A stretch of DNA of 64,000 nt, from the NCBI GenBank assembly GCA_026545225.1, contig CM048845.1, positions 103,288,033 through 103,352,032 on the forward strand, given 5' to 3'. Below, one piece after another: positions 1 through 53,342 of the stretch (within the stretch, counting starts at the first letter, position 1; every line of letters starts with the position of its first letter). Source of the DNA: Cornus controversa. Lineage: Eukaryota > Streptophyta > Magnoliopsida > Cornales > Cornaceae. The position numbers and the translations under genes were made by a program. The notes under the pieces were generated by a model, which had not been told where the DNA came from, did not search any database, and worked only from the letters and a program-made list of their open reading frames with translations.

Positions 1-375
1 AACTTTACAATCCTAAATACTTGTTTGATTGATCTCATTCTGTGTAAATGATGAAAAAAAGTATGGGCACAAACTAAAAATGTTTGAGAACCAGATCGAG
101 CCTTTATACCCAAGGCTAGCATGTTCAGAAGAGGATATGAAAAATATAAAGATAAAGATAACTATGGAGAATATAATTCCCTCTATAAAGATGACCGTAA
201 TTTGGATTGAGAGAGCTAGAAATATAATTGAAGAATGATGAAAAAAAATACTAATTTCTAATGAATTTACCATCGCCACAGGTTTTGAGACGGTTATCAT
301 TGCAAAAACAGATAAATTCGTCGTTATAAGAACCACAGCGCCCACCACTTCTCTCACAGTTGCTAAACTACGACA
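1..375 (-). pseudogene. Truncated duplicate of an LRK10L-type ectodomain exon end
   Basis: This stretch is a near copy of 800-1168. It contains only the last part of a WAK_assoc coding region (about 262-366, minus strand), with the Cys-rich SGGRCG block, the exon-end splice donor (minus strand, about 265-270) and the downstream flank. Similarity stops abruptly near 366-375, so the signal peptide and GUB_WAK_bind part are missing. A few bases are lost compared with the intact copy near 290, which breaks the frame. It is a dead remnant of a tandem duplication. Whether further exons lie to the left cannot be seen. Confidence 0.75.
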
Positions 376-799
376 ACAATATTCATATCTTTTTCTGCAG
401 ATTAAAAAAATCTAATCTAGAATGAGGCCATGTGAAGGACCAAAATGTTACACCCCACCATGGCTAGAACATGGGTGAAAACTCTAGGCGACATGACGCA
501 TATAGCATAAGTAGTGCTAATCACTTTTGCTTAAGAAGTACAGATAAAACATGTAAAACAGCCATGGAAAAAAGTCCAGAGAGAAAGACGTATGGTTCTC
601 GTTTAATTGATGCCCAAAATCTTCTTCCGTTCAAGTAAACAACCTTCCATGGATCACATTTGACTTGATTGAATGCAGTTAGGTTGTCGAAGCTATGAAT
701 CATCTAAATGATATAGGCATAAAACAAATATGTAAAATAATAGAGGAAGGCCTTCTCACTCGGGCAGCCTTACCTATGTCATCTCCTAGGCAAAAACAA
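376..799. other. Spacer between duplicated exon ends
   Basis: This is unique sequence separating the truncated remnant from the intact copy. A 60-codon minus-strand open frame (521-703) shows no recognisable domain. I see no convincing gene here. Confidence 0.4.
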
Positions 800-1068
800 A
801 CTTTACAATCATAAATACTTGTTTGATTGATCTCATTCTGTGTATATGACGGAAAAAAGTATGGGCACAAACTAAAAATGTTTGAGAACGAGATCGAGCT
901 TTTATACCCAAGCCTAGCATGTTCAGAAGAGGGTATGAAAAAGATAAATGTAAAGATAACTATGGAGAATATAATTCCCTCTATAAAGATGACCGTAATT
1001 TGGATTGAGAGAGCTAGAATATATAATTGAAGAATGATGAAAAGAATACTAATTTCTAATGAATTTAC

Positions 1069-1831
1069 CATCACCACAGGTTTTGAGACGGGGTTTATTA
1101 TTGCAAAAACAGATAAATTCGTCGTTATAAGAACCACAGCGCCCACCACTTCTCTCACAGTTGCTACAATCAACTGCACTCCATTGCAAAACGAATCCCT
1201 CCTTCAAAACATCTGTGAAATTCATCTTCAACAATCTTTCAATATCTTCACCATCCACAGGCGCGTTAATCACAGACCGGCAAGCCTCTATTGAATAGTT
1301 CCTGAACTCCAAAACTTCCTTATGGAAAACAGCAAAAGAATGATGGGTAGCATTGCTAGCACAATCAACCGAATATGTGACGTAATCGTAAGCAGGTGAA
1401 GTGCAGTTGTAGAAGAAGAAGAGGTCCCAATAAGCAGGACCATGAATAAATGGAGTGTGATCAATGCTAAAGTTATGTTTAGGTGTTGGACATGTATTAG
1501 CACTATCATAGAGTGCAGTGTTGGCCAAGAGAATTGAATGATTTTTGTAAAAAATCTCTTTGATGAAATATTCATCATTGGAAATTTTTAGGACTGGGAC
1601 ATGGAGATTGCAGGTGATCTCGAATCCTGGGGCTCCACAGTAGGAGTCTTGTAGGTCAGGAATCCAAAAGGGGTAGCTTATAGTAGGTCCATAACCACAA
1701 TTTTGAGGCAGGCAATCCCCGAACTTCGAGTCTGAAGATAGAGTTTCAGCTTCTAAGGTGGTGAAGATGTTATTGATAATGAAAAAAATATAGAAAGATA
1801 TTTTGAATATGAAGAAGGTTTGAAGATTCAT
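1069..1831 (-). CDS. LRK10L-type receptor ectodomain exon 1 (copy 1)
   Basis: The exon encodes a signal peptide (residues 1 to about 28, starting MNLQTFFIFK) and then a GUB_WAK_bind domain with the diagnostic Cys pattern and ISYPFW. Several N-glycosylation sites and a C-terminal WAK_assoc block (CSNCERSGGRCG, then FICFC) follow. In the LRK10L family this exon is the extracellular, presumed wall- or carbohydrate-sensing part, and later exons add a transmembrane helix and Ser/Thr kinase. The frame runs through a splice donor (GTAAAT, after a Cys-Gly-Asp codon series) and stops 6 codons later. I therefore end the exon at 1069. No kinase exon is visible down to position 1. The locus may continue outside the window, or it may make a short secreted protein. 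Confidence 0.8.
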
Positions 1832-2436
1832 TTGGGTTGTAGGAATGAGGAAGGCAGAGGAAAACAGGGAAGGAGAAGAGAGGGCTGGAGTTGGAGTTGG
1901 AGTTGGAGGGAAGCATTAGGAGAAAATTTCAATGTAGTTGGTAAGAGTTAGCCTTTCAGTCCATGTATATCCTTTAAATCTACCTTTGTTTTGTTTGGGT
2001 ATAATATAAATAGAGTTTTGGAAAAAGAGTACTTACCCACATAACAGACAAACAATGGTTCAAGCAACATCAAAGAAGTTTCCTTTGAGCTGCCTTTTAA
2101 GTGAGCCATGGCTTCAATCAATTATAAAGCCAGAACAAAATCACGATATAAGTGGAATCTATAGATTATACTAGTGAGATTTTTTCAAACTAACCTGATT
2201 ATGCTTTTGATATTGGGAACATGCACTAGTCTCGTGAATAAAAATATATGTATATATATATATATGTAAATAACTAGAATGCATCATCACTTGTAATGAT
2301 GACATAATGGTTCGAATTTGAATGGCGAAACTGCCCTTTTTTTGGGACGCAAACTAAAGACAAATGGGAGAATTTCTTAGGGAAAAAGACATAGAGGAGG
2401 ACCATATACAGCAACCTCTAATAGACGTACACTAGA

Positions 2437-2477
<41 letters not shown>

Positions 2478-3268
2478 GAAATTGAGTGATGATGGGTAAG
2501 TATTGACTTTTGGAATACTACATACTGAGATTGGGTTGGTTGAACCGAAAGTGTAGAAAAGAGAGACCTCTTTTTTCTCATGTGTTGAAAGCAGAAGCAA
2601 AGGAAAATATGAACCCTCTCCATAAATTCACATTTGTAGACATAACTAATCTAATTTGGAGATGTTTTAGGCTTACCTGAACTTGAAGAGAAATATTCCA
2701 CACGCATATATATTTGATATTTCATTGACCGTTGACATGTTCAATGGTAGACGTGTAACACTAGTAATACACATCTTCTGGGTCCCCACCAATAATTCAA
2801 AAGTTTCACACAAGAATGGATTGAAGTCATTTCCTGATTGTTCATCCAGTTTGAGTCTTTTTACTTTTTATGGTCAAAGAAAGGGTTAAGCCTAAACTTC
2901 ATTTGACATTAATGGTGACCGGCCATAGTTTTATCAACTTTCAACCAGCAATAATCACATAGTGCAGAAACATTGCATGTATGAGCTTCTTAATTGGTTA
3001 CTTAAAAAATCAAGGAATCATCTTGCCCACATTTCAACCCGACCGTTTCTTAAAACAATGAAATGGAGTATTAAAAAGGTAAAAATTAAACATGATAGGC
3101 TGTCCAAACTCTAAACTCACATCCTCTATGGACAACAAATAAATAATTATCTAAAAGATAATTACTGAATGTTGGTTCTATCGATCAATACCTAATAATG
3201 GAAGCTAGAAATCGATATGCATGCTAACATAAAAATGTAGTGAACCTGAAAATCAAAGGGTTGCGTAC
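1832..3268. other. Intergenic spacer with (AT)n
   Basis: This AT-rich spacer contains a microsatellite of (AT) units at about 2440-2475 and a short one near 2250. Short open frames around 2418-2623 are translations of the repeat. There is no transmembrane or kinase exon for the next ectodomain exon, which would have to lie here if that gene were complete. Confidence 0.6.
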
Positions 3269-4082
3269 CATGGTCTCCACAAGTTAGATGACGAGGGTGA
3301 TCGTGACAAAGGCAGACAAATCCGAGCGTCTTCGGATCGGATCCACAAGTCCCACCGGAGGCCTCACACCTTGAGCATTCGCTTGCATTATACACAACCT
3401 CAAACCCTAAATTCAAAGCGTCCTGCAGCGTCACATTCCGATTCCAAAGTTTGTCCAAACTTGTCTTGAGAACCGGAACTTCAATGCCAACTTGGCAGGA
3501 GGTCATGTTGGGAAGCTGAATCCTCAAGAATGACTCGTCTGCGTAAAAGCCACCACTCTCTCTTCCACACGTAAAGTTGTTCCTGAAGTCTATAGTAAAA
3601 TTTGAGTCTCTAGTATGATTTGAGGTGCAATTGTAGAATATATACAGGATTCGGACAGTTGAAACATTGCCAAAGAAGAAGGCGTTGTTCAAAGTTATAT
3701 TACTGAATGTCTGAGGACAGTAATCATCCCATAGGTCTAACCGTGCCATAGTCATCCTGTAACTGGGTGGCGAGTTGATCCTTAGTATACGGAACATATG
3801 ATCATCGATATTTAAAACCGGGTAGTCATTTATTTGGCACTTGAGCTCGAACCTTGGATGGCCACAGTAGTCGGGTCGACCATCACCCCAAAAAGGGTAC
3901 CCTATGCCTTTAATGTCTTGGCCACAGTTGTAGGTATGATTTTTGCACGTCGAGAACATTTCATGGTCTACACAGAGAGATGTTGAGAAGGTGGTGATGA
4001 TGAAGAATAATATGAAGATGGTGGAGTTGTGAGAGAGGGATAAAGAGAAGAGTAGGGCATACATTTGTAAAAGATCGACCAT
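3269..4082 (-). CDS. LRK10L-type receptor ectodomain exon 1 (copy 2)
   Basis: The open frame begins at 4250, but I place the start at Met57 (4082), which opens a hydrophobic signal sequence (MVDLLQMYALLFSLSL). Downstream come the GUB_WAK_bind signature (NCG, GIGYPFWGDGRPDYCGHPRF), many Asn-X-Ser/Thr sites, and the WAK_assoc block ECSRCEASGGTCG with VCLCHDHPRHLTCGD. The exon ends at a donor GTACGC just after CGDH. Read-through would add about 25 unrelated residues. The predicted product is an apoplastic or plasma-membrane ectodomain. No transmembrane or kinase coding follows within the 1.4 kb before copy 1. Possible explanations are a solitary ectodomain gene, an exon with decayed partners, or an alternative first exon. 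Confidence 0.78.
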
Positions 4083-4250
4083 GAATGGACAAGAGAGAGA
4101 ATTAATTTTGGTGAGAGAGGTGTGGTTTAATTGGTGGTTATTGATGTTAAGGACAACTTTCAAATCAAGGAACAAAGAGATGGGAAGGTTCTCTCCTAAA
4201 GTAATGTAAACAGATAAGCCAGCCCATTTGTTTTGACAAAGAAAACTCAT

Positions 4251-6240
4251 CTTATTTTATTATAATTTTCAGAGACAGAGACAGGTGGCTGCTGACATCC
4301 ATGACTGTTTCACTGTTACTTGATATTTTGAATTCATGGCACGCTGTTGACATGACGAAATTCTCCACCGTGGGCGGCTTTTTTTTTATTTTTTTTCTTT
4401 TTTTCTGATTTTCAGTAATTAATTCGGTGGCCTCTCCTTTCCACCAAATTATTAGATCTTTCGCAACTACATGTTTTCGGTCAATTACAGACACATCATT
4501 GATTACATGATTCCAATTAATTATAGGCGACTACATAATCTCGACCAATTACAGAGAGACTGGATACAAAATATAAGTCTATCTCCTCTAATACCCTCCC
4601 ATAACACTTAGTGATAAAAAGTTATATCATGTTATATATGCCACTCATTAATATTACCTCCTTGGATTGATTTACTTATGGGTTAAGTGCAAAAAAACAT
4701 TCTTGCTATATACAAACTGCAAAAAAAATACCCTGCAAGTTTAGTATGTTCATATAATCTCCTACTAGTTATCTTCGATGAGCAAATATCCTCCTCTGAC
4801 GAATTTTCTTTTAACTATTGACGGTCATTTAAAAAAAAATCAAAATTACAATTTGCACTTTATCTTATAAAGTGCAAAAAAATCTATCGCTATATAAAAA
4901 ATGTACAAATAGTCTCTTGTTGTTCGAAAAATCCTTATCTATTTCGGACATTTTACATATTTTCATTTTTTAATTAATATTGTAAAGAAATTTTTTTATT
5001 TTTTAATTTCAGTACCCGCAAATTGATGATTTGTTTTTATTTACACAATTTAAAAAGGGTAAGAGATTAATTAAATATGAGAATATTTGTGCATTTCGTA
5101 TATAGTGTGGGAATTTTTTTTTTTCACTTAACCCATACTAGAAGCACTATTAATTAAACTAGTTCTAAGTCAAGCCCGGCCATCTACATCCAAAATTATA
5201 TTGTAATATGGTCCCTTTAAATCATAAGAATGGTCCAGAGTTTTACTATTAAAAAGAATGGAAATTATATTCCAAACCAGCTAGTCTATAATAAAGCTGA
5301 TCTCCAGCTAATTAATTCTGACCTTGATATCGCAAGTACGTACAATTGACTTTTCTATATATACTCTTAAATCCGAGGGGGAAACATACTTTTCTCATTT
5401 GCAGAAAAAAAAGAAACCAACTTTTCTTATTGTATGGCTTCGAAGAACAATACTCAATCACTTTGTTCACGTCACTCCGACCAGTTCATCATGTGTGGGC
5501 GTCGTCAATATAATCTTTCTAAATCCAATTGTTAAATTTCCTCATATTAAGGAGGGAAAAGAATTAAGAAACTGTTAAGTAAGCTGACAATTCAGCCAAA
5601 CGTGTTTAAATTAAGACCAAATATGAACCAAAATTAAAACATCAAGGATCATTTCTGACAACCCTTCCGTCCAGTTTTATCATTTTTTTCTCTTTAGTTT
5701 CTATTTTTTATTTATTTCATATTCCTAATTATAATATTTTATACTAAACAAATTGTTATATTTAAAGTAGAAAACCAACCTCCAAACCATGTGATCTAAG
5801 AAACGCAGTCCAATATTTTATGAAAGGGGGGCTATCAATGTTAGGAAGGTGTTTTGTGCTATCTGGTCTATGAAATTATATATGAAGGCCAATAGGAAAA
5901 AAAATAAAAAATAAAAAATAAAAAAGGAAAAAGAAGATTAATTTGGAGGAAAAGAAATAGTCACTGTTGACAACTAAGGGAGGGGACATTGCTAGGTAAT
6001 TTCCTAGTCAACCTAGGTGGGGACACTGCTAGCTAGCTACGTATCTGACCAAGTCAATTAAGCTTTGTTAATTAACATAGGAAGTTACCATCTAATTTCA
6101 TCTTTCATTGAATGATACTACTTTTAACTTCTTCTTGAAACTAGTATGATCTGTTGTAAGACCTACCCAGCACCCAGAAAGAATAAAAAAATATCGGAAA
6201 ATGAAGGGAGAGGCACATATATATATATATATATAGATAG
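4251..6240. other. Intergenic spacer, AT-rich
   Basis: The spacer contains a TIR element at 4679-5135 (separate entry) and otherwise A/T-rich noncoding DNA. Short frames such as 5324-5578 have no recognisable domain. A short (AT)n tract lies at about 6216-6234. No kinase exon is seen. Confidence 0.5.
4679..5135. mobile_element. Non-autonomous TIR DNA element, about 457 bp
   Basis: The ends are inverted copies of one another. The left end starts TGGGTTAAGTG followed by an A run and a CTATATAC-like block. The right end is the reverse complement and closes with CACTTAACCCA. Similarity between the arms extends about 45 bp with mismatches. The interior is AT-rich and noncoding. No clean target duplication is seen beyond a possible TA, so the superfamily is uncertain. 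Confidence 0.6.
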
Positions 6241-6248
6241 ATACGTAC

Positions 6249-7017
6249 TCGGCGAATTGTTGCTGACCGGTGAAGTTGGTCGAATTACCGGAGGAGTTGG
6301 GCACCTTCTATTGTAAGTTTGGTTATCAGGACAGAAGCAAGATGATTCATCCAAAGTCCAGTTATATCCACAAAACCAACCTGAGTTCATACAATCTCTA
6401 CATGGCCTTTGGTCAACCATCCATCGAACCTCAAAACCCATGCTCAAAATAATACTAATATTCGATGAATTACTGAAAAGGTCCGGAAGAATTGGAACCA
6501 CAACACTCACTTTACAACTCTTGGTGAGTTCATTTGGCAAGTTTGTATCATTCACAAAGTAACCGTAGCGAACATCATTGCTTGTTGTCTGACAAGAAAT
6601 GTTAGGAATTAGTCCCATGCTTTGGGAGCAATCGTAAAACAACGTGGCGTTTTCATCATTGGGAGTGTAATCAAAGAGAGTGAAATTCAAGGTGGTGTTG
6701 ACGAATTGATCGTGACAAATATTATCTAGGAAATCGGTTTTAGCAATGTTTAGGATTTGAGTGTTGAAATCTATATGGAGGACACTGAAGGTTTGTGACA
6801 TGATTTGTATAGTAGCATCATCTTCTTGGCAATCAAGCTTGAATTGTGGATGCCCACAATAGTTTGGAAGGCCATTTCCCCAGAAAGGGTAACCAATTCC
6901 TTTCAACTTTCCGCAGTCGAAGGAAGTGCAATTTGAATATGATTTTGGGAGGAGAATGGAAAAGAGGAGGAAGATCACTAAGAAGAGAGGAAAAGATGGA
7001 AATATGTTGAGATCCAT
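6249..7017 (-). CDS. LRK10L-type receptor ectodomain exon 1 (copy 3, divergent)
   Basis: The long frame starts at 7266, but the upstream part is a translation of a GA repeat. I place the start at Met84 (7017), which opens a strong signal peptide (MDLNIFPSFPLFLVIFLLFS). The GUB_WAK_bind part has DCGKLKGIGYPFWGNGLPNYCG. The WAK_assoc-like part has RPCRDCMNSGWFCGYNW and SSCFCPDNQ, where the usual SGG is replaced by SGW. A Pro/Ser/Thr-rich linker (PTPPVIRPTSPVSNNSP) follows, ending at a donor GTACGT. This linker is absent from the other copies, so copy 3 belongs to a different subclass. No kinase coding is seen before copy 2. Confidence 0.75.
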
Positions 7018-7109
7018 TAGGACAAACTCAGTGAACTGATCCAAGTGAATGATAAAGAATATGGTGGAGGGGAATTCACTGAAGAATGACTCTCTGCGCG
7101 AGCACAAGG

Positions 7110-7113
<4 letters not shown>

Positions 7114-7144
<31 letters not shown>
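7114..7144. repeat. (GA)n microsatellite in 5-prime flank of copy 3
   Basis: An uninterrupted GA run lies about 100 bp upstream of the chosen start codon of ectodomain copy 3. On the transcribed strand it is a (CT)n tract, the kind common in plant 5-prime leaders. Confidence 0.8.
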
Positions 7145-7147
<3 letters not shown>

Positions 7148-7536
7148 TCAATGAAGGATAATTCCACGAATCTACATATGCTAACCAGCAAGAATACCAG
7201 TCTTACAAGCAATTGACTTGGAAGAGTTGATAAGTCGACTGAATTGCCAATTACCAACACAAACACACAAAAAGAGGAGTTGACCTTAAACTCACAGAAT
7301 AATTACTGGTTAGTCTTATTTTTAAACTTTAAACGCCAATAAATCCTAAGAAATTTTACAAGGACGATAAAACCCTACTTTTAATAAATAAAAAAATTCT
7401 ATTAACAATGTGTTGTTTCAATATTACGCTTTCTATTTGAAATTCCTTTAATTTTTATTTTTATTTTTTTTAAATACTAGCTATACCCTTTATAATGTTT
7501 AATTAGTACAAATATACAATAACAATGAAATGTAGT

Positions 7537-8121
7537 TTTCCCGACCAAATTATCAATTTTGTGAAAAATTTGCACGGTTATTTAAATTTTACCAACCGTA
7601 ACAAAAACAAATAAAATGCAAGTTCAAATAGTTCCATAATTTTTCACATGAAGTAGATTCATATGTACAATTAATGATAAATTTAAATTCTTCTTTTATT
7701 TTATATATATTTTTTAAAAGTATATATGTAATTTCAAGTATTAAAAATAAGTTCATGTAAAGTTAAACTATGTTATATATATGTAAAAAAATAAAAAGTG
7801 AATCAAGGTAGTATAAATTTATCTTTCAAATTTTTTATATAAGAAAATGATATTAATGATATTTCAATAGAAAGGGCAATAGAGGAAAAATACAATGTTA
7901 GTAAAATTATGACCATAGTTAAAAATATTTATTAGAAGTATCACTTAGTTGTCCAAAAATATCTTAATAGCACATATTAGTCCTTATATTTGAAAGTAGG
8001 TGATTTTTCCTAAATTAATGTATAAAAAGGTAACAAAGAAGTGCAGTATATTTTTTTTCAAGACGAAAGTTCAAGTCTTCCTAGAAACAGGAAACAGAGG
8101 GTGTGTGACACAGGTTATTGC

Positions 8122-8176
<55 letters not shown>

Positions 8177-9885
8177 ACCTGGTAAACATTGCGCATGTCA
8201 TTTGTGTGAATCGGAGGCTTCGAGCTTAAAAGTAGTCACTTTCTGAAATATCCAAATAAAATTTCCTCCTACAATCCTACGGTAGGAAGACCATGTCTGA
8301 GCTTAAATATTGACTTGGTAAATTAATGCAGTTTTATGAATAAGTGGTGTAAGGCTTCTGTTTTTCATTGATTTAATAGACATCAGAACTTGAATATACG
8401 ATTTTTTTTTTTTTTTAAAAAAAAACATAAATCAGGAACAAACCACAGCGTCAATAGATTATGACTTGCTGACGGTCCCTTGTGGTTGGATGAACCATCC
8501 AATCCGTGTTTTTATAATTAAAAAATCTTCAAAAAAAAAAATATATATATATATATAGATGGCTAATATGGGTACATCCATTTAATCAACATATACCCAT
8601 TAATCAAACATTATATATATAGTGTATAAAATAGAATGAAAAGAAGGAACCTTTTTTGCAGTGTTGTTTTTTTGTGGTGCCATCGGGGCAAAAGCACAAC
8701 TGTTTATCCACTTTGTTGTAGCCACAGCGCCCATGAGACCACTCACACGCGCTGCACTCACTCAGCGACGGCCTCCAGTCGAGCACAAAACCATCGTTCA
8801 TACCAAACCCACTGATCAAATCCGGTATGATGTTCTCCCTACGCAACACCTTTGCCACCACTTTGTCCTCACACAACCAATCAGCACCGACCGGTTCTGT
8901 CCCCGCCTCAAAAACATAGGACTCCTTCACACCCGATCTCAAGCACAATATAGGAGGAGCACGAATACGGTAATCAGTGCAATTAAAGTAAAAAGTGAGG
9001 TTCAAATCTAATTGGGAGTGAAACAATTGAACACTATTTGTGTCAAGAGTAAGGTTGTTACGCGCCCTGGGGCACCTTTGGTCGCCGGTAACATTGATGT
9101 TGACGAGGGTGAGGTTTTTATGGTCATAACTTATATTTGTAACGCTGTAAGGGTTGTTGAAGAGGTCGAGGATGACCTGGTCGGTGCTCGAGGAGCATTC
9201 AAGGCCCAGGCCCGGGTAACCGCAGTACTTAGACGTCGATGTTGTGGTGTCTATTCGCCAAAACGGGTAGCTAATGTTAACTTCACCACACATGGACGAA
9301 GGACAGTTTCCGGCGAATGGATCTTTGTCGTCACCGTAACAGCTGATCAGGAAGAAGAAGGAGAAGAAGAGGGAGGAAGCAAGGAGGAAGAGAGGGTGTG
9401 ACATGGTGGAAATGTTTGCACTTGTATTTCCAAAGAGGAATACATTTGTGCTCTTCCTATATTATATATATATATATTATATATATACCTGTAATATGGG
9501 ATTGGACTTTCTGGAATTACTAAACTGCCCCTTCACAATTATTCACATTTTCCAACTTAAATGAGATGTACTTGCGTGCTAAAGACCGCCTGGGTTCCTG
9601 TCTCTATCCTTTATACTGATAACTCTACTCCTCTGTCCCAAAATTCATTTGGTTTGTAAATTGTTAAGGAGACATATATGCACTAGTTGATGTCTTTATT
9701 TGAAATTTTAGAACTATTCATTTAAAGTTTAAATTTTCATATTATTAGTTTATGAAAGTTTTCAAAAGTTATAGATTAACTTTCAAATCCAACATGAATT
9801 TTCGGACAATTAAAAATAAAAATAAATAAATAGATATATATTTTTGAATGGAGGGAGTCCCTGATTGAGAATTATGTGCAGAGGT
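7537..9885. repeat. Segmental duplication, copy A (contains ectodomain copy 4)
   Basis: Sequence from TTTCCCGACCAAATTATC onward is recognisably repeated at 10716. The match continues through the 3-prime flank, the ectodomain exon, the promoter and about 480 bp of upstream flank. Copy A carries a private segment of roughly 285 bp near 8045-8328, including a long (AT)n tract at about 8127-8174, which copy B lacks. Confidence 0.8.
8651..9404 (-). CDS. LRK10L-type receptor ectodomain exon 1 (copy 4)
   Basis: A signal peptide (MSHPLFLLASSLFFSFFFLI) is followed by a GUB_WAK_bind domain (NCPSSMCGEVNISYPFW, YCGYPGLGLEC), N-glycosylation sites and a WAK_assoc block (ECSACEWSHGRCGYN, LCFCPDG). The coding part ends in CKK at a weak donor (GTTCCT); read-through adds about 15 residues. 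The start at 9404 is the first Met and opens the hydrophobic core directly. It is very similar to copy 5 and lies on the same duplicated unit. No transmembrane or kinase exon occurs in the 1.6 kb before copy 3. Plus-strand open frames over this exon are shadows. Confidence 0.78.
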
Positions 9886-11915
9886 GTCATTACATGTATA
9901 ATAAGATTAATGATACATGCATGCGTAAAAACACTCGTGAGAAGAAGATTGATTCACATTTAGGTAAGAGACAAAGATAACGATTAAAACTAACATGAAA
10001 TGAAGTGACAAAATATGATTTCAAAAAATTAAATTTAGTAGAATATATAACTTATGATAAAAAAAAAATAAGTGGCATTCCTCGGGTCAATCTTTCTGAA
10101 GGTAGCAGGTCTATTAATATAGCAGTCCATTAGGTTCCTTCAGCTCTCAAAAAGGAAAAATTCCAAAAAGTTTGGTCATGGCTTCCTCTGTATCTCAGTG
10201 CTTTCAGGACTTTCAGTGAGTAGAAGTTGAGTAGTTTTGGTTTGTTTTCTTCTTATATTTTTTTCTTTTTGAATATCAAAATCAAACAAATATATATATA
10301 TATATATATATAAAATTCAATTCAAATCTTTAGTAAATTATAGTGTCAGAGAGACAACTGAAGAGGCATTAGGTTTTTATAATGATTAAGGTGTTAGAAG
10401 TGTTGCTATGTTAGTATCTTAGAAATATAGAGAACTTGTATGGTGCAACAACCTTCATACATGGGAGTTCTAAGACTTCCTCTGTCTGCTAAAAATACGG
10501 AACTTATATGGTGCAAAAAACTGCATATACATGGCCTTCAAGATTTGATTGCCATGAGAAAGTAACCTTATCATGATATGTTCTGCTAAATTTGTTAGCA
10601 ACGACAAGACAAAATGGATGATAAATAATTTTAACAATAAATTAAAACATCAGTCATGTAGTACAAGAATCTGCATCTGATCTTGAAGGGGAATATAAGT
10701 AGGGTCTGGGTGGAATTTCCCGACCAAATTATCAATTTTGTGAAAAATTTGCACGTTATTTAAATTTTACCAAGTGTAAAAAAAAACAAATATAATGCAA
10801 GTTCAAAATAGTTCCATAATTTTTCACATGAAGTAGATTCATATGTACAATTAATTATAAATTTAAATTCTTCTTTTACTTTATATATATATTTTAAAAG
10901 TATATATGTAATTTCAAGTATTAAAAATAAGTTCATGTAAAGTTAAACTATGTTATATATCTGTAAAAAAAAAAAAAAGTGAATCAAGGTAGTATAAATT
11001 TATCTTTCAAATTTTTTATATAAGAAAATGATATTTCAATAGAAAGGGCAATACAGGAAAAATACAATGTTAGTGAAATTATGACCATACTTAAAAATAT
11101 TTATTAAAAGTATCACTTTTCCTAAAATATTTTTGTAGCACATATTAGTCCTTATATTTGAAAGTAGGTGATTTTTCCTAAATTAATGTATAAAAATGGT
11201 AACAAAGTAACGCAGTTTTATGAATAAGTGGTGCAAGGGTCCAAGCTCTTAAAGGGCTCTGCTTTTCATTTATTTAATAGACATCAAAACTTGAATATAC
11301 GAATTTTATAAATAGAGCAATGCTACACGTCACGAAAATATTTCATGAATTTTTATCTTGAATGATGTGGCAATTAAATGGTGAGTTAGAATTGGTGGGA
11401 TTCCCCTCATACACGGAATGTCAATGGTATTATCACTTGCCACATCATTCATGAAGGCAATTCATGATAAAATTTAATGACGTTTAGCATTTCCCTTAAA
11501 TAAAGGATAAATCAGGAACAAAACCATAGCCTCTATAGATTATGACTTCCTGACGGTCCCTTGTGGATGAACTTTCAAAGCAATAACACTATTTACCGCA
11601 AAGCTACAAACTGTTACACATATTACCACAAATTTAAATCTATTTTCCTAACCATATTACTAACTCCTGCTTCTTTAACCAGAGTTGAGTAGTAATTGAA
11701 GGGCCAATGTGTGTGTGTGTATATATATATATATATAGTTTGAGTTTGCACTAACCTTTTGCTCCACCTATTAGCATTATGTTGCATATTCTATGGTCAT
11801 TTATGGGCTACTAGGTCCTATATAATTAAATTAAAACGAGGCAGCTGTTTATCATTCATTCATTAGATGATAACCATCCAATCCGTGTTTTTATAATTAA
11901 AAAATCTTCACAATA

Positions 11916-11948
<33 letters not shown>

Positions 11949-11964
11949 GGGTCCATCCTTTTAA
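9405..11964. other. Spacer upstream of ectodomain copy 4
   Basis: Around 9460-9490 there is an imperfect (AT)n tract about 55-85 bp upstream of copy 4, likely containing its TATA region. The remainder to 10715 is unique AT-rich DNA with short (AT)n and A-rich tracts. From 10716 it is segmental copy B. No exon encoding a kinase or membrane helix is seen. Confidence 0.5.
11315..11495. mobile_element. Foldback MITE, family B, copy 1
   Basis: This is a 181-bp element with inverted ends: the left end GAGCAATGCTACACGTCA matches the reverse complement of the right end at 15 of 18 positions. It interrupts a block that is continuous in segmental copy A, so it inserted after the duplication. The flanks TTATAAATA and TTAAATAAA are only partly alike, so a 9-bp target duplication is possible but degraded. 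Confidence 0.7.
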
Positions 11965-12011
11965 TCAAACATTATATATATAGTGTATAAAAGAGAACGA
12001 AAAGAAGGAAC

Positions 12012-12777
12012 CTTTTTTGCAGTGTTGTTTTTTTGTGGTGCCATCGGGGCAAAAGCACAACAACTGTTTATCCACTTTGTTGTAGCCACAGCGCCCATCA
12101 GACGACTCACACGCGCCGCACTCAGTCAGCCACCCCCAATCGAGTAGAAAGCCCTTGTTCATGGCCACACCAAAGGCATTGATCAAATCATAAGATGTGG
12201 TCATATTCATCTCCCTATGCAACACCTTTGTCACCACTTTCTCCTCACAGGAATCGTACAACCAATCAGCACCAACCGGCTCTGTCCCCGCCACAAAAAC
12301 AAAGGACTCGTTCACACCCGATTTCAAGCACGGTATAGGAGGTATTGGAGGGTAATCAGTGCAATTAAAGTAAAAACTGATATTCAAATCCAATTGGGAG
12401 TGAAAAAACGGAACAGTGTCAAGAGTAAGGTTGTGACGCGCCCTGGGGCACGTTTGGTTGGTGGTAACATCGATGTCGACCAAGCTGAGGGTTTTATCGT
12501 CATAGCTTATACTTCTAACCGAGTAATTGTCGTTGGGGAGGTAGAGGATGAGGTCGCCGGTGCTCGAGCAGTTCAGGCCAAGCCCACGGTAACCGCAGTA
12601 CTCAGTTGAGGTTGTGGTGTCCATTTTCCAAAACGGGTAGCTAATGTTAACCTTGCCACACATGTACCAAGGGCACTTTGCGGCCAATGAATCTATCTTG
12701 TCGCCATAGGAGCTGAGAAAGAAGGAGAAGAAGAGAGAGGAAGCAAGGAGGAAGAGAGGTTGTGAGGTCTGTGACAT
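12012..12777 (-). CDS. LRK10L-type receptor ectodomain exon 1 (copy 5)
   Basis: The frame opens at 12795. I prefer the Met at 12777 (MSQTSQPLFLLASSLFFSFF) because it aligns with the start of copy 4 and opens the signal peptide. The domains are GUB_WAK_bind (KCPWYMCGKVNISYPFW, YCGYRGLGLNC) and WAK_assoc (ECGACESSDGRCGYN, LCFCPDG), ending in CKK at the same weak donor GTTCCT as copy 4. The product is probably secreted or tethered at the cell surface. No downstream kinase exon is visible before copy 4. Both close duplicates keep intact frames, which argues against simple decay. Confidence 0.78.
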
Positions 12778-12808
12778 GTTTGTAGTAGAATTCAAATGTG
12801 TGCGCTCT

Positions 12809-12813
<5 letters not shown>

Positions 12814-12852
<39 letters not shown>
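12814..12852. repeat. (AT)n microsatellite at the promoter of ectodomain copy 5
   Basis: A run of about 19 AT units lies 37-75 bp upstream of the start codon, where a TATA box would be expected. Copy 4 has an imperfect AT tract at the equivalent place, so the repeat may serve as the TATA region. Confidence 0.7.
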
Positions 12853-12855
<3 letters not shown>

Positions 12856-13765
12856 AATGCATGTATGTGTAACACGGGATCGGACTTTTTGTAATTACTA
12901 AACTGCCCTTGACAAGTAATCAGATTTTGTAACTTACCTACCTGGGATGTAACCTACATGGGATGTAACTGTGAGCATCAAGACTGCTTGGATTTTGTAA
13001 CTTACCTACCCAGTGAGATCAAACTGGTAAAAATTTGCTCTTCTGTCTCAAAATTCTTATGTTTTTTAATATTTTAAAGAGATGCACTCATGTATGTATT
13101 TGTCCTTTTTTGAAATTTCAAAACTTTTCATTTATTTTAAAAATTCATATTGCTAGTTTACAGGGAGTAAAAGTTTTTAAAAGTTAAAAATATATTTTGA
13201 GAAGCATAAAATCTTTATGCATTAACTTTCAGACAGAGATAGAGATGAATTTTGGGACACTCAAAAATAAATAAATAAGAGAAAAATATTTTGGAGCAGA
13301 GGAGAAGTACGTGATTGAGGATTATGCGTACAAGTAATATACAATTATACATGCACCTAGCAAGCAATTATTTGGTGATTACCATTTTGCTCAACTAATC
13401 CCCTAGAAACTCATTATTCTTATAATAAAAGTAAATAAATAAATAAATTATTTGTTTTCTGAACTCTAAATAACCAAAATAAAGAAAAGACAAGTCCAAT
13501 TAAAATGTTGATTTTTTTTTATATTTTTAAAAGTAGATTCTCTTTATAACCAAAAAAAAAAAAAAAAAGACTTACCAAACATTTTGGACAGTTCTGATAT
13601 TTCACAAAGTTATTTGTCTTTATAAATGATGAAAAAGATGTGCTGCATCATGCCTCTGAATAAAAAATGTAAAATATCACAAATCACGTAGGAAACGAAT
13701 CTCTTCTACAATAAACCACGCGGCTAGTTGTTGACTAACATAATCAACACGGGTACAACTATATA

Positions 13766-13946
13766 CAGAAATGGTAAACGTTATAAAATTTTATCATGAA
13801 TTGTCTTCATGAATAATGTGACAAGTAATAATACCATTGATATTCTGTGTATGGGAGGAATCCCACCAATACTAACTCACCATTTAATTGCCACATCATT
13901 CAAGATAAAAATTCATAAAATATTTTCATGACGTGTAGTATTGCTC
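13766..13946. mobile_element. Foldback MITE, family B, copy 2 (inverted)
   Basis: Same element as 11315-11495 in the opposite orientation, colinear over its whole length: the TTATCATGAATTG block, the CACCATTTAATTGCCACATC block and the end TGACGTGTAGTATTGCTC. The ends have diverged and no clear target duplication is seen. Confidence 0.7.
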
Positions 13947-14054
13947 ATCAATTTTTAAAGTCGTTAGCTAATCTAACCGGTAATTGTACCCACAAATTTC
14001 GAGTTCAAAGTCTAAGAACCAAATACGTACTTAAATGTTCAGTTATATTGATAA

Positions 14055-14226
14055 GGGTAATGCTACTCAGGCATAATTTTTAGGCAGAATTCGTAGGCAG
14101 AAATATTTACATCCATTAGATGTATGTGGTAGACCCCACCACATATACTCACCACATGCATCCAATGGATGTAAATGTTTCTGCCTACGAATTATGTCTA
14201 AGAATTCTGCCTGAGTAGCATTACCC
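14055..14226. mobile_element. Foldback MITE, family A, copy 1, with 9-bp TSD
   Basis: This is a 172-bp, almost wholly palindromic element whose ends are GGGTAATGCTACTCAGGCA and its inverse. It is flanked by a perfect 9-bp direct repeat TATTGATAA (14046-14054 and 14227-14235). A 9-bp target duplication is typical of Mutator-like elements, so this looks like a MULE-derived MITE. Confidence 0.85.
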
Positions 14227-15236
14227 TATTGATAATCAAGAAATGAGTACAATCTTTGTGGCTGATTATTTTACAATTAATAATCTTTCTCTTATTAGAT
14301 TTCTTTAGACTGTTGGGGGATACAAAAAGTCTTATCTTGAATTGGTGGTTAAAAGTTATTCAAGTTTTTCAAAGTTAAACAAGACTTGAATGGATTTTCA
14401 AATGAAGACCAGTGAAATTTTGTCTTGAATGGTGCATTGAAGGTCTTCAAAGAAGAACGGCTTTCATCTTCAGTAACTTCTAAGTATTAGATGTGTTGGA
14501 GATTCGGTATTGAATAAATTATCTCCTTTGATAGGATTCAAAAAAAAAAAAAAACAATATACTACCTAAGAAAAAAACATGAGCCAAAAATAGGTTTATT
14601 TCAGTTGAAAAATAAAATAAAATTCAAGAAAAAAATTATCTCTTTTGACAGGATCCAAAAAATAATAATAATTCACTAAAGGAAATAAAGAAGGTAAAAA
14701 AAAGTTAAAGTTAACTAGGAAAAAAAATTAAATTTTATAGTATAAAGGGTAGTTATTGTATTATAAAATAAAGAATGATACATTAATGAGTTTAAGAGTC
14801 TTATTGTCATTTTCTTTTTAAAAAAAAAAAAGACAAATGGAGTTCAATTATAGAAAAGTGGAATATGAATATCACCTCCCTTATACAAATGTGAAGATCC
14901 ATAATGTAAGCGCGTAATTTTCTTATTTATTTGATTTAATATAATTATCAATTAATTTTTGATTTGGACAACCTAACTTAAAATAGTTCAAGTACCTAAT
15001 AAAAAGCAAGTTTCTTTCCTTAATTTTTTATTATTGCAAGGGAGGGCTTTTTAAGCTTGTCTCTTAGGCCCAGTGGTGTTCTTTCCCACTTTATTGTAAT
15101 TATCACACATTAATACATTTTGCTTTAATTTCCAAAAAAAAAAAAAAATTGTCAAGTCCTAATTAATTTGACTTGTTGAAAAATTCTTAATAGTATTCCT
15201 TGAAGATGACTGTAAGAGGAATGTGAGATATTAGAG

Positions 15237-16044: not shown

Positions 16045-16412
16045 TTGACCGGAGAAAGCATCTGTAATTAGTTCAGGAATATTAAAACTTCTTAGAGCTT
16101 TTTTTCTAGCTAATACTAGTTAATTATCTCATTCAAGTTGCAATAAAATATAAAAGACGTGTGGCATCCACGTTCCATTCATTATTTTAGTACTTAATGG
16201 CTAGTTCAATGTTCTCTTCCTATATATATATATATATATTGACCGGAGAAAGCATCTGTAATTAGTTCAGGAATATTGAAACTTCTTAGAGCTTTCTTTC
16301 TAGCTAATACTAGTTAATTATCTCATTCAAGTTGAAATAAAATATAAAAGGCGTGTGGCCTCCACGTTCCATTGATTATTTTACTACTTAATGGCTAGTT
16401 CAATGTTCTCTT

Positions 16413-16432
<20 letters not shown>
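16045..16432. repeat. Tandem duplication, period 194 bp
   Basis: The block beginning TTGACCGGAGAAAGCATCTG at 16045 recurs at 16239 with only scattered differences. Each copy ends in an (AT)n tract, and the second tract has expanded to more than 50 bp. Confidence 0.9.
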
Positions 16433-16472
<40 letters not shown>

Positions 16473-17989: not shown

Positions 17990-18024
<35 letters not shown>

Positions 18025-19220
18025 GTCGATGAGTACAATTGGTGAATCAATCTGTAAATTAGGTTATAAAATAAAGACTAAAATAAAGGTAGAGAGAAGA
18101 AACCAAGTATGATGTGGGTATATATATATATTATGTTGATGGGTATAATTGGTGAATTAACTTGTGAATCAGGTTATAAAATAAAGACTAAAATAAAGGT
18201 AGAGAGAAGAAACCAAGTATGGTGTGGGTCTACACTCTTAGAATATTTTCATACCATACCCACATGCAGATCAGTGGTGATGGCCAGGGAATGGCTGATC
18301 GGTGATTCACGAATCCATCAAAGATGGCTCACCAACAATCGGCCATCATAGCAAATGACCAGATCTAGTTCGGATTCGCGTCAGATCTGTAAACATCAAC
18401 ATCGGAATAGTGAGGCATTCCTTTATAGTTATTTCTTCTGATAAGAGATTGAACAATATTTCTTCCTCAAGCATTGATTTCGAACTCCCTCTCGTGGTTG
18501 CCTTTAGCCCAAATCTCCCCACTCAAAAATTCTATTCTTCGATACTTGTAATTGGTTTTCCAAATAAATAGAAGTTGAGGAGAATCTGAGATTGATCGAT
18601 TTGGTTTTAATGAAATTTTTATTTTCGATTTACTCTGTTCTGTGAATGATTGTTTAGTATTATTGTTGTTATAAGAATTCACAAATGGGTTTGATTTTCA
18701 TATTATGTTTGTGGTTACTTTAATCTGATTATACAATGAGATTCACAAATGGATTTGTCTTTCATGTATAATTTCTCTCGTTACATCACTGATTAGTTGG
18801 GCTTGTGATTGCTATCAATTTTTTTTTTTTTTAGAAGAGAATCAATTTGAATGTGCTTATGATTGCTATCCAATTATTTTATTTTATTTTTGGAAGAGAA
18901 TCACTTTGAAGGTGGCAGTGAGAGAATCAAACTAAAATCATAGCACATTCAATCCAAGTATCAAATGCATTAGTTGGCTTTAGAAAGAGAAAATTGTTTC
19001 AGAATTGTAGGGAAAGAGTGTCTTATAATCCATGGCCTTTTTGGTCATTCAACAATTATGATATTTTATACCATAAATTAATTAAATAATAAGGGGTAAT
19101 CTAGACATTTTACTGCATTATTAAATGAAAAAACTGATCGAGGGTGTTTATGACAAATTTTTACAAAGTTATAGTCGCGTGACAATACATCAAACCTTAG
19201 GGGATGTCAGTGATATTACC
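17711..19220. mobile_element. TIR DNA element, family C, about 1.5 kb
   Basis: The left end (TATTACTGACATCTTCTGAG, then ATGTATTGTCACGCGACTA) is the inverse of the right end near 19165-19220 (TAGTCGCGTGACAATACAT, then GATGTCAGTGATATTACC). The inverted arms run about 80 bp. The interior has no transposase, so the element is non-autonomous. A related arm occurs alone at 38183-38416. Exact borders and target duplication are not resolved. Confidence 0.65.
18021..18230. repeat. Tandem duplication, period 110 bp
   Basis: The block starting TTATGTCGATGAGTACAATT recurs at 18131 with few changes. An (AT)n tract separates the copies. It lies inside the family C TIR element. Confidence 0.85.
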
Positions 19221-19510: not shown

Positions 19511-19668
19511 GGATAATGCTACTCAGGCAGAATTCGTAGATAGAAACTTTTACATCCATTGGATATATGTGGTGAGTGTATGTGGTGGGGCCTACCACAT
19601 GCATCCAATGGATGTAAAAGTTTCTGCTTATAAATTCTGCCTAAGAATTCTGCCTGAGTAGCATTATC
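19511..19668. mobile_element. Foldback MITE, family A, copy 2, with 9-bp TSD
   Basis: This 158-bp palindromic element has ends GGATAATGCTACTCAGGCAG and the inverse. It is flanked by a perfect 9-bp repeat AAAACTAAA (19502-19510 and 19669-19677). It is the same family as 14055-14226. Confidence 0.85.
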
Positions 19669-24182: not shown

Positions 24183-27114
24183 ATGACAGTTAGAAATCCT
24201 GTTACACCATCTTCAAAAATAGACAGGACACCAGTATCCACCCCTGGTGGGCCTAAAGCTAGAGAAGAGAAGATTGTTGTGACAGTACGGTTAAGGCCTT
24301 TAAACAGAAGGGAGCAATCAACTAAAGACCAAGTAGCATGGGAGTGCATTGATGATCAAACAATTGTGTATAAACCACCACCGCAGGATCGTGCAGCACA
24401 ACCAGCCTCATTTACATTTGGTAACCAAGTGAAACCCATCTATTTTTCTTTTCATTTTTGGGTACTTAGATGCTTGTATTGTATTTGTTTTCGATTATAT
24501 AGAAATTAAGTGAGCAATGTTCCTTTCTCAGATAAAGTCTTTGGTCCTGCTTGTTTAACTGAATCTGTTTACGAGGAAGGAGTAAAGAAGGTCGCTTTGT
24601 CGGCTTTAATGGGCATCAACGGTAGTGCATATTCTCATAATAATCTACTTGTTTATGTTTCTTACTAGTATTTATTCCTATTCTTATATATACATTCTTA
24701 TTAAAGAATTCTTTATCTCGTCTATTGCAGCAACCATATTTGCGTATGGGCAAACTAGCAGTGGGAAGACTTACACAATGAGAGGAATTACAGAGAAAGC
24801 TGTTAATGATATCTATAATCATATAATTAATGTAAGCCTAAGCAGAACCTGCTGACATTGTTACTGTAGAATATGCTTGGTCATCAGAGTAGGGTATAAT
24901 AAATTCTCTCACTGAAAATGCAATAGAACTTAATATGAAAAAACTCTTATCTTTTGCACAAATTTTGTAGGTTGATCAAATTAGGGATCTAAATACTAAT
25001 ATTGAACAAACTGTTTTTTCATAACTGATCTTATGTTGTATGGCATCAAACAGACTCCAGAGAGAGATTTTAGAATTAGAATTTCTGGGCTAGAAATCTA
25101 CAATGAGAATGTTAGAGACCTGTTGAATTCTGAATCTGGTCGCAATCTCAAGCTTTTAGATGATCCAGAGGTAAATTCAGTGTAAAAGCATTAACATCTA
25201 TAGGTACTCAATAATTTTGCATTATTTCCTGATTTATACTGGATTTGTTGCGATTCCCTGCATGCAGAAAGGAACTGTGGTGGAGAAGTTGGTGGAGGAA
25301 ACAGCAAACAACGATCAACATTTAAGACATTTAATCAGTATTTGTGAGGGTAAAGACTAGGAGCTTCTGGCATGAATTGGCTTAGTTTCCTTTTATCTAT
25401 TGGTTAGAATTAAGCCATTTATAGTACTTGATTCTCTGTATATTTTGTAGCTCAAAGGCAAGTGGGTGAAACTGCCCTAAATGATACTAGCTCACGGTCA
25501 CACCAGATAATAAGGCTGGTGAGTCTTATTGCTTGTATTTATCTCGACTCTGCCCGATGAAAATGCAGCAAGTGATTATCAACTCATGTTAATATTTTTG
25601 GCTGACAATGCAGATAATAGAAAGTACTCTCCGAGAAAATTCAGATTGTGTGCGTTCTTTCGTTGCAAGTCTGGTAAAAAAAATTCTTTCATATATGTCC
25701 TAAATAGGTTGAAGAGCAAGAACTTTGTGACCATTACTTTTAACATTGATTTTCTGCAGAACTTTGTTGATCTAGCTGGAAGTGAAAGAGCCTCACAGAC
25801 AAATGCAGAAGGTGCTAGGCTTAGGGAAGGCTGTCATATTAACCTTAGCTTGATGACTCTCACAACTGTAATTAGGAAGCTCAGGTCAGGATTCATCAGT
25901 ATCATGATATCATTTTTGAGATAGCTAATATGCTGCTTTTAATCCTGGTTATGCTATTTTTATTTCAGTATTCCTCTACCTTATTTGGCTGTTCCTTTCC
26001 TCTCGAGTTTTACCTTTTTTGCAAAGGAAAAATCAGGATAGGTTAGGGTATCATGTTGTTACATATGAAGTATTAAATTCTAATCTAACAAGAGTTTGTG
26101 ATTATGGTCTGGCTGTGTCATTTCATACGCATTGTAACTAATGTCTTGAGAGCCTTTGAATGTTGTGGATTCTAACAGCTTATAAAGAATTTGCTACGTA
26201 TCTTATTGTCAAAAATAGATAAATCAATAAATGAATATAAAAATATAGAAAAAAACCACAACAACAACAACTTTTGAATCAGATGCAGAAGCACAGCTCA
26301 TTGTCACCTGAGTAGAACCTGCTGCACATGCTAATTTGAGTTCTGTTAATAATGGGCTTCATTAGCAATTGTTGAATCCTGCTGTCTTAAGTTTTGGAAA
26401 ATGTAAATGCTGCAGATTGCAGTGCCATTAAAAATTGCTGCTGTACATATTCCTCACAATGTCTTTATTTATCTGTCAATTCTTTCTGCTTGTGTGCAGT
26501 GTTGGAAAAAGAAGTGGTCATATACCCTACCGAGACTCAAAGCTTACACGCATACTGCAGCACTCACTTGGTGGAAATGCTCGTACTGCCATCATATGCA
26601 CTTTAAGTCCAGCATTGAGCCATGTTGAACAAACACGGAATACTCTCTTTTTTGCTACCAGAGCAAAGGAAGTGACAAATAATGCACAAGTAAACATGGT
26701 ACTGCTTCTTGGACACCCACTTCTCTTATTTTTCATTTTCTACTGTATTGAAACAAAATTGTAGCTGCTTTTTTCTTTATTTAAATACTTCTTTTCTCAA
26801 ATTTTTTTTTTTAAATTACCAGGTTGTTTCAGACAAGCAACTGGTAAAGCATTTGCAGAAGGAAGTAGCCAGACTGGAAGCAGAGCTACGTACTCCAGAT
26901 CCATCAAACGAAAAAGACATAAAAATTCAGCAGGTACACACCATCACTTAAGTCTGGCCTGCTGAATTATCTGAAACGGGATTGAAAAATTTGTGCTCAT
27001 CTGTCTTGTGACTCATTTTGTTTAGATGAAGATGGAAATGGAGGAATTGAGGCGTCAAAGAGATCTTGCACAATCACAAGTGGATGAGTTGCGTCGAAAA
27101 CTTCAGGATGAACA

Positions 27115-27208
<94 letters not shown>

Positions 27209-29092
27209 TCAATTCTATATAAGCCTTAAAATTTCTTTGATGTTGATAACTACTTCAGGATTTAAAGCCTTTTGAATCACCCGGCCCAGTGGTGAAGAAG
27301 TGTCTCTCTTTTTCTGGGACATTATCACCGAAACTAGAAGGCAAGCAGCCAGGATACGGTGATAGAACAGGAATTACAATGGTGAGGCAGTCCATGAGGC
27401 AATCTTCAACTGCTCCTTTCACACTAATGCATGAAATTCGGAAACTTGAACACCTCCAGGAGCAGCTTGGAGATGAAGCGAATCGAGCTCTAGAAGTACT
27501 CCAAAAGGAGGTAGCTTGCCATAGACAGGGTAACCAAGATGCTGCAGAAACTATTGCTAAGTTGCAAGCAGAAATAAGGGAAATGTGTGCTGTCCGACCT
27601 GCACCAAAAGAAGTTGAAGTTGGAAGTGTGGTTTCTGTTCATAAGAGTGTTAGTGCAAACCTCAAAGAAGAAATAACCAGACTTCATTCTCAAGGAAGCA
27701 CCATTGAAGAGCAGCTCGAAAATGTTCAGAAAACCATAGACAACTTGGTAATGTCTCTTCCAAGCAATAATGATCAGCAATTTAGTAATGAGGCAGCAGC
27801 TCCAAAGGCCAAGAATCAATCAAAGAGGAAGAAGTTGCTTCCTTTAGCTTCAAGCGACAGTGTCAACCGCCAAAAGTTCATAAGATCTCCATGCTCACCC
27901 CTATCATCTTCTCGGCAAGTGTTAGACTCTGAAAATAGAGCTCCTGATTATGACGACGCTGTGTCAACTGAAACTATGCCAGCATCTGAGAAAGAGACTC
28001 CAACAAAAAGTGAAGAAGGTGGAGATGTTTCATCAAAGGAAGGTACTCCATATCGACGATCAAGTTCTGTCAACATGAGGAAAATGCAGAAGATGTTTCA
28101 GAATGCAGCAGAGGAGAATGTAAGAAGCATAAGAGCATATGTAACAGAACTTAAAGAACGGGTGGCCAAGCTGCAATATCAAAAGCAGCTACTTGTTTGC
28201 CAGGTAAAGAAGAGGTTTTTTCACCTGCATCAGATCTCTCCCAAGTTCATTATAGAAGTGTGAAATTTGTTTCATTTGCATTTTTGTCTTTGTATTATAA
28301 ATTTTGTTCCATTTGCATGCATTATGCTGCTAGGTTCTTGAGCTTGAAGCAAATGAAGCAGATGGGTACAATTTAGAGAATGAAGACAACATACCTGAGA
28401 TACAAGAGGAACCTCAAGTTCCATGGCATGTGACTTTTAGGGAGCAAAGGCAGCAGATCATTGAGTTATGGGATTTATGTCATGTATCTATCATTCATAG
28501 GACACAGTTCTACCTGTTATTCAAGGGGGACACAGCTGATCAAATATACATGGAAGTTGAACTGAGGCGCTTGACTTGGTTGCAGCAGCACCTGGCAGAA
28601 CTTGGGAATGCAAGCCCAGCTTGTGTAGGAGACGAGCCTACAGTTTCTTTGTCATCAAGGTTATTTCCCCTCATTTTTAGGACTTACTAGTTGAATTGAT
28701 TACTTTCTTCATGTTCTTGTCAGAAAACTAACATTTGTATTGTATACCTTGTTCTGTAATGCAGTATTAGAGCATTGAAGCGTGAAAGGGAGTTCCTTGC
28801 CAAGAGGTTAACTACACGTTTGACTGCAGAGGAGAGAGATGCACTGTACATAAAATGGAACGTGGCATTAGACGGGAAGCAGAGGAAGATGCAGTTTGTA
28901 AGCAAGCTTTGGACAGATCCCCATGATGCCAAACATGTACAGGAGAGTGCTGGGATAGTGGCAAAGCTTGTCGGTTTCTGCGAAAGTGGAAATATGTCAA
29001 AGGAGATGTTTGAGCTTAACTTTGTGCTTCCTTCGGATAAGAGGTCATGGATTATGGGCTGGAATCCAATATCAAACCTTCTTCATTTGTGA
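24183..29092 (+). CDS. NACK1: NACK1/HINKEL-type cytokinesis kinesin (KIN-7), 14 coding exons
   Basis: Exons by splice consensus and family similarity: 24183-24420, 24532-24621, 24731-24831, 25054-25170, 25268-25349, 25451-25518, 25614-25673, 25760-25884, 26500-26698, 26823-26933, 27026-27118, 27259-28203, 28334-28659, 28765-29092. Joined, they give 960 residues with no stop, close to known NACK1 length. The N-terminal motor has P-loop GQTSSGKT (116-123), switch I NDTSSRSH (220-227), switch II DLAGSE (256-261) and YRDSKLTR. Neck and stalk coiled coils follow, then a conserved C-terminal domain. NACK1 moves to the phragmoplast midzone and binds and activates the MAPKKK NPK1 for cell-plate expansion. 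Two CDK-type sites are kept: Thr675 (KETPTK) and Thr691 (EGTPYRR). Resemblance is closer to NACK1/HIK than to NACK2/TES, from memory of the family. The gene looks fully intact. Confidence 0.93.
27119..27204. repeat. Compound (CT)n(AT)n microsatellite at a splice donor
   Basis: The repeat begins at the very donor of kinesin intron 11 (CAG, then GTCTCTCT). It has about 24 CT units followed by about 18 AT units, and fills more than half of the 140-bp intron. Confidence 0.9.
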
Positions 29093-31145: not shown

Positions 31146-31297
31146 GCTACTCAGGCAGAATTCATAGGCAGAAAGTTTTATATCCATTGGATGCATGTGG
31201 TAGGCCCCACCACATACACTCACCACATGCATCCAATGGATGTAAAACTTTCTGCCTATGAATTCTGCCTACGAAGTCTGCCTGAGTAGCATTACCC
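31146..31297. mobile_element. Foldback MITE, family A, copy 3
   Basis: Palindromic element as at 14055 and 19511, but the first seven bases of the left end are missing (it starts GCTACTCAGGCAG). The right end is complete (GAGTAGCATTACCC). The flanks CTTCTTTTA and TTTCTTTTA match at 8 of 9 positions, consistent with an eroded 9-bp target duplication. Confidence 0.8.
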
Positions 31298-32044
31298 TTT
31301 CTTTTATTATTTCTCATCTGCAAAACATATATTTTTGATTGATTCTGAAGAAGCAATTAGGCATAGCATTGTCAAGTTTTGTAACATAAAATAGAGGATT
31401 CTTTTGTTTAGGCTTTTTCCATAGTTATTTACACTATTCATTTATTTGTCAAAATAAATTATGTTGATCTTTTAGTACAAAAACTTTGACGTGCCATTCA
31501 GGTTGACCTTTTTTTTTCCCAGCAAATTAATTTCTTAAAGGGGAAAAACGAAAATGGACAAGGGGTGGGCCTAACAACCCAAGAAGGGCGAAGCCCAAAA
31601 CAAAGACTGACCCAACAAACAGAAGGGCAGAAAACAAGCTAATCTAAAAGCCCAGTAGAAATCACGAAGGGGCGGACAAACACCTGGTCACAGATTCAAA
31701 AACTTTTCCTCTAGGCACTTGAATCATCAATATTTTATTTGAAATATGTGGATATATGTTAGAGAGTCTTGTCCCAGATTCAAATGGATAAGAACTTGAC
31801 ATATAATAGTAGGTATGCAGTATTATCCAATAACTTAAATTTTTGAGTTAAACGACAAGCGCCCGACCCATAATAATATACCACTAGCTACATAAGAAAA
31901 AACTTTCCGATTGACCATTATTTCAAATCTGCCAATGCAGAGTAGACAACAGCAAATTTAGGATGAAATTAGAGTTTATTCCTCCACCATTTATATAATG
32001 CCAGCAACAAGAGGGACATAGCTAGATAATTAAAAGTGACAACA

Positions 32045-33728: not shown

Positions 33729-33840
33729 TTTTTTTCCTTCACTCACACTGGAATTGCTAAAACTAGCTTGATGAGAGAGAGGGAATGAGAGAGAAAGAGG
33801 GACTTGGGGATGAGGTGCATAAAGCTTGGGGTGTCATCCC

Positions 33841-36780: not shown

Positions 36781-36786
36781 TCACCC

Positions 36787-53295: not shown

Positions 53296-53342
53296 TTGAT
53301 GTGGAGTGAAGAGATAGGTGTTGTTCTGGGTGTTTTGATTGG

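Follow-up and report, generated by a model that had tools for sequence, protein, structure and literature searches.

The locus analysed here raises the question of how a row of receptor ectodomain exons could operate with no kinase exon between them. In this 64,000-nucleotide stretch of Cornus controversa DNA (the window), a first-pass annotation had described five intact minus-strand exons of LRK10L type, ending at 1069, 3269, 6249, 8651 and 12012. It had offered three readings of them without choosing, namely soluble or decoy ectodomains, variable first exons spliced to a shared kinase module to the left of the window, and repeated loss of kinase exons. Open reading frames were found at those places, and the features on which the argument draws are the following.

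1..365, minus strand: partial sixth copy, a repeat of the copy 1 tail (94.9% identity to 799-1166), truncated at the window edge
1069..1831, minus strand: copy 1, ectodomain exon (N-terminal hydrophobic stretch, GUB_WAK_bind, WAK_assoc); candidate donor GT at 1068, phase 1
3269..4082, minus strand: copy 2, ectodomain exon; ATG at 4082 or 4064 (our choice); candidate donor GT at 3268, phase 1
6249..7017, minus strand: copy 3, ectodomain exon; candidate donor GT at 6248, phase 1; higher-scoring GTs at 6288 and 6267 (phase 0) and 6166 (phase 2)
8651..9404, minus strand: copy 4, ectodomain exon; weak candidate donor GT at 8650, phase 1
12012..12777, minus strand: copy 5, ectodomain exon, nearest to copy 4 (74% amino-acid identity); weak candidate donor GT at 12011, phase 1
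7537..8038 and 10716-11207, minus strand: spacer block that follows copy 4 and recurs after copy 5 (96% identity ungapped, 93% gapped)
24183..29092 (ends approximate), plus strand: kinesin gene, divergent from the array; motor domain PF00225 and, in two exons, DUF3490 (PF11995)

All five copies were confirmed as intact minus-strand ectodomain exons, with a start-to-start spacing of 2.2 to 3.4 kb; these exons, their domains, frames, candidate donors and order are observed directly in the window. Counted from the first ATG, GTG or TTG, the open reading frames of copies 1 to 5 encode 260, 352, 367, 266 and 276 amino acids. In a window of 34% G+C, the longest stop-free run in any of six frames had a median of 112 and a maximum of 175 codons across 300 first-order Markov shuffles of bases 1-13000, and five runs of at least 250 codons are therefore not due to chance. 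As had been proposed from the first reading, both domains are encoded in every exon above the curated Pfam cut-offs, with E-values of 3.2e-17 to 9.6e-15 for GUB_WAK_bind (PF13947) and 3.1e-18 to 2.5e-12 for WAK_assoc (PF14380). Alignment of the five proteins yields 30 invariant columns, 13 of them cysteine, and each exon encodes 14 or 15 cysteines and 6 to 11 N-glycosylation sequons. The signal peptide claimed for each exon stands as a prediction: all five N-termini are hydrophobic and, judged by hydrophobicity alone, are candidate signal peptides. The partial sixth copy corresponds to the final 32 codons of copy 1 together with the donor and some 270 bases downstream, and at 12.8-24 kb no further ectodomain copy matched above 22 bits. 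An AlphaFold2 model of copy 1 (mean pLDDT 46.6) was too poor for fold comparison, and a profile of the five sequences identified no credible relative among PDB sequences (one match, E 0.34). Searches of two collections that are not of plants, and to which we give little weight, returned nine pattern matches with none confirmed (viral_contigs) and, with copy 5 alone as the query, eight matches with none confirmed (genome_contigs).

To the annotation, no kinase exon had been visible in the spacers. We searched the whole window by tblastn (E up to 10) with two plant receptor-kinase domains. The best match, at 47 bits, is a MAPKK-like stretch on the plus strand at 36.9-37.4 kb, the recovery of which serves as a positive control and indicates that the probes work; outside this stretch no probe match exceeded 23 bits anywhere in the window. 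Between the copies (bases 1-13000) the probes gave eight weak matches, the best at 22.3 bits. Six of these lie on the plus strand, and both minus-strand matches overlap exon sequence, that of copies 3 and 4; no kinase remnant was found. In agreement with the annotation, these two probes revealed no kinase exon between the copies, degraded exons included, and neither the transmembrane exon nor the kinase domain of an LRK10L gene anywhere in the window. Repeated loss of kinase exons is weakened by this result, since no remnant was found in any spacer, and more than one old loss without trace is possible.

Hydrophobic stretches are present in the AT-rich spacers, the most suggestive being the one after copy 1, where a hydrophobic frame in matching phase follows an AG 55 bases beyond the donor. 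We considered this frame as a transmembrane exon and rejected it, because the implied intron is very short and there is no coding constraint between the duplicates: by our reading nine codons differ from the duplicate, eight change the residue, one to a stop. The MAPKK-like stretch belongs to a pseudogene at 36733-37450 (plus strand; PF00069 at 29.2 bits, below the cut-off of 31.7) that has a frame change and inner stops and that we take to be nearest to MKK4/5. The idea that this piece is a syntenic MKK7 gene was dropped on account of the frame change, the inner stops and its closer resemblance to MKK4/5.

The neighbourhood of the array gives a clue to its identity. We take the adjoining kinesin to be NACK1/HINKEL-like, HINKEL presumably being At1g18370, and At1g18390, two numbers on, to be an LRK10L kinase gene that is its divergent neighbour in Arabidopsis. 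Because a NACK1-like kinesin adjoins the array, and given this Arabidopsis neighbourhood, the array probably sits at the locus corresponding to At1g18390, an assignment to which the MAPKK-like piece adds nothing. Several repeats and genes were also recorded in the surroundings. Copy 5 is flanked by a 179-base element in two inverted copies with 92% identity (11315-11493 and 13768-13946), and three places (14053-14227, 19518-19666 and 31146-31299) hold a self-complementary repeat, 145-175 bases long, that is likely a small mobile element of the inverted-repeat kind. Tandem pairs are found at 16045-16433 (195-base units, 96%) and 18009-18229 (111-base units, 92%), and a small intact lipid-transfer-type protein is encoded at 33450-33833 on the minus strand (PF00234, E 2.2e-10). 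An enolase-superfamily gene occupies 48190-53373 on the minus strand (PF13378 at 48193-48561), and LINE-type reverse-transcriptase-like frames, judged by eye, lie at 49113-50336, perhaps in an intron of this gene.

The LRK10L family offers published precedent for an arrangement in which ectodomain and kinase are separable. AT1G18390 is reported to have two isoforms, in transcript and in protein, that use alternative starts (PMC10337256), and Arabidopsis LRK10L3 is reported to have peptides for both isoforms, with alternative first exons that encode distinct extracellular domains and with identical transmembrane and kinase regions (PMC13136898). The latter report suggests that such modularity may permit diverse signals to be recognised. 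A further report describes an ectodomain first exon in cucumber that was duplicated and then joined to another kinase (PMC7649820). Given this precedent and the adjoining kinesin, together with five intact exons on the same strand that each carry both domains and have no kinase between them by two probes, we suggest with modest confidence that a single LRK10L receptor-kinase gene uses the five as alternative first exons, and that its kinase would lie to the left of the window. Among the three readings first offered, variable first exons on a shared kinase are thus the best supported. A point against such first exons is that the intron of copy 5 would exceed 12 kb, long for a plant. Long genes do exist in this family, since the melon LRK10L gene model 'isoform X1' spans about 9 kb (PMC8805612).

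The exon ends bear directly on this suggestion. A GT follows each of them, and all five leave phase 1. When every GT of the window is scored by approximate plant splice-site frequencies, the donors of copies 1 to 5 rank at the 96th, 97th, 91st, 89th and 89th percentiles, and the phase-1 GT is the top-scoring one in four of the five copies (1, 2, 4 and 5), in line with first exons that share a downstream kinase. The proposal that each exon ends at a possible donor therefore holds as to the presence and phase of the GT, but the quality is uneven: the donors of copies 4 and 5 are weak, and in copy 3 three GTs outscore the phase-1 site, two of them in phase 0 and one in phase 2. Both of these points count against first exons of a shared kinase, and the phase-1 pattern may be taken as support, not proof. 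In copies 4 and 5, TATA-like runs embedded in AT repeats precede the ATG by 40 to 83 bases; for copies 1-3 the 300 bases upstream of the ATG contain none. Runs that precede two of five copies, in AT-rich repeats, likewise count against the suggestion and give no clear support to separate promoters for each copy.

The same exon ends also bear on the main rival explanation, which we consider unlikely. Each copy, or at least the distal copies 3 to 5, would here be its own short gene for a secreted, kinase-less ectodomain (a receptor-like protein or decoy), with the reading running past the donor to a stop. In-frame stops indeed lie 6, 25, 28, 15 and 15 codons beyond the donors of copies 1 to 5, the weak donors of copies 4 and 5 would fit, and in a survey of legumes and other plants both domains are recorded for kinase-less receptor-like proteins in all 10 species (PMC7333395). 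However, such proteins would have no need of a phase-1 GT, which all five copies have, the tails beyond the donors are dissimilar except between copies 4 and 5, and no supported transmembrane segment follows.

Divergence among the copies was informative for one pair. Copies 4 and 5 are recently related: over 243 codons their proteins are 74% identical, and they have a dS of 0.26 and a dN of 0.16 (ratio 0.60), with pN below pS (z 2.2), which amounts to mild constraint and weighs against first exons in service of a shared kinase. A dN/dS comparison between copies had been suggested as a check, and it yields this one value: the remaining nine of ten pairs are 27 to 35% identical, with synonymous sites saturated, and so permit no estimate. 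Indels tell more about the frame of copies 4 and 5. At a gap opening of -14, 12 indels separate the two exons; 10 have lengths divisible by three, and the remaining two, of 11 and 2, lie on opposite sides and leave a net nine. Such multiples account for one of eight indels in the 5' flank, one of seven in the spacer block and three of five in the short 3' flank. When gaps are penalised less, they make up 9 of 15 indels in the exon, and 2 of 11 or 1 of 8 in the 5' flank. Since the exon indels are mostly multiples of three, unlike those of the 5' flank and the spacer block, the reading frame of copies 4 and 5 was under selection, at least until recently. This favours first exons of a shared kinase, against which the three of five in the 3' flank must be set. 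The earlier argument that kept frames speak against plain decay is borne out, by indels for copies 4 and 5, and by length and conserved cysteines for all five.

We note that the resemblance between copies 4 and 5 is a mosaic (extents 7537-9404 and 10716-12777). Computed without gaps, their identity is about 82% in the 5' flank, 86-87% in the exon, 96-100% across the exon end and donor, 89-95% in the 3' flank and 96% in the spacer block. The parts of high identity look as though they were homogenised later, possibly by gene conversion.

These comparisons also weigh on a quite improbable explanation, in which the array would be what unequal crossing-over left around one real LRK10L gene, the kinase-adjacent copy alone working and the others being recent or slowly dying duplicates. 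The clearly broken duplicate at 1-365, the mild 0.60 ratio of copies 4 and 5 and the uneven donors would all suit such leftovers; however, five frames of at least 250 codons are intact, 13 cysteines are invariant among copies with saturated synonymous sites, and the indels are frame-keeping. Finally, ATL20-22-type ubiquitin ligases have a RING-H2 part, and that the exons feed such a module and not a kinase is highly improbable, since no RING-H2 pattern was found in six frames of the window and the place beside a NACK1-like kinesin points to an LRK10L locus. In its favour, the ATL proteins listed for grapevine include one that carries GUB_WAK_bind and one that carries WAK_assoc (PMC5133618).

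Returning to alternative first exons of one LRK10L gene, we can outline how the array might operate. Each first exon would have its own transcription start, from a putative promoter of its own, and would carry its own signal peptide and an ectodomain of the presumed galacturonan-binding type. Its phase-1 donor would be spliced to common downstream exons, the transmembrane and kinase exons of one gene left of the window, such that one kinase would serve several sensors. As a tentative and rather doubtful extension, at least five divergent ectodomain first exons with their own promoters may serve one receptor kinase, in a set that would grow by exon-only tandem duplication and be reshaped by local gene conversion, with one signalling core reading several wall-derived ligands in a plant counterpart of the clustered protocadherin organisation. 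Should one kinase indeed serve all these exons, the plant would vary the sensor of one receptor through its choice of promoter instead of duplicating the whole gene, LRK10L receptor counts made from kinase domains would miss most sensors, and the locus would provide a testable case of how plants widen the sensing range of one wall receptor.

The clustered protocadherin and UGT1A genes of animals hold rows of variable first exons, and the window would resemble them in that such a row would share constant downstream exons; this is an analogy alone, with no kinship, and the constant part is inferred here. Kinase-less GUB_WAK_bind/WAK_assoc receptor-like proteins have the same two domains without a kinase, whereas the window copies have no supported transmembrane segment and their candidate donors point to further exons. 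In cucumber CsLRK10L1 and CsLRK10L2, the ectodomain first exon likewise duplicates as a unit apart from the kinase, but each cucumber ectodomain gained its own kinase. A literature search for receptor-like kinases with variable first exons gave no match, which does not show that larger arrays are unpublished. Arabidopsis LRK10L3 and AT1G18390 have the same ectodomain type as the window exons, and the neighbour gene would match; two isoforms are described there, whereas the window has five intact candidate first exons and a predicted kinase to its left. Alternative ectodomain first exons in the LRK10L family are already in print for Arabidopsis, and the five copies would be the new part.
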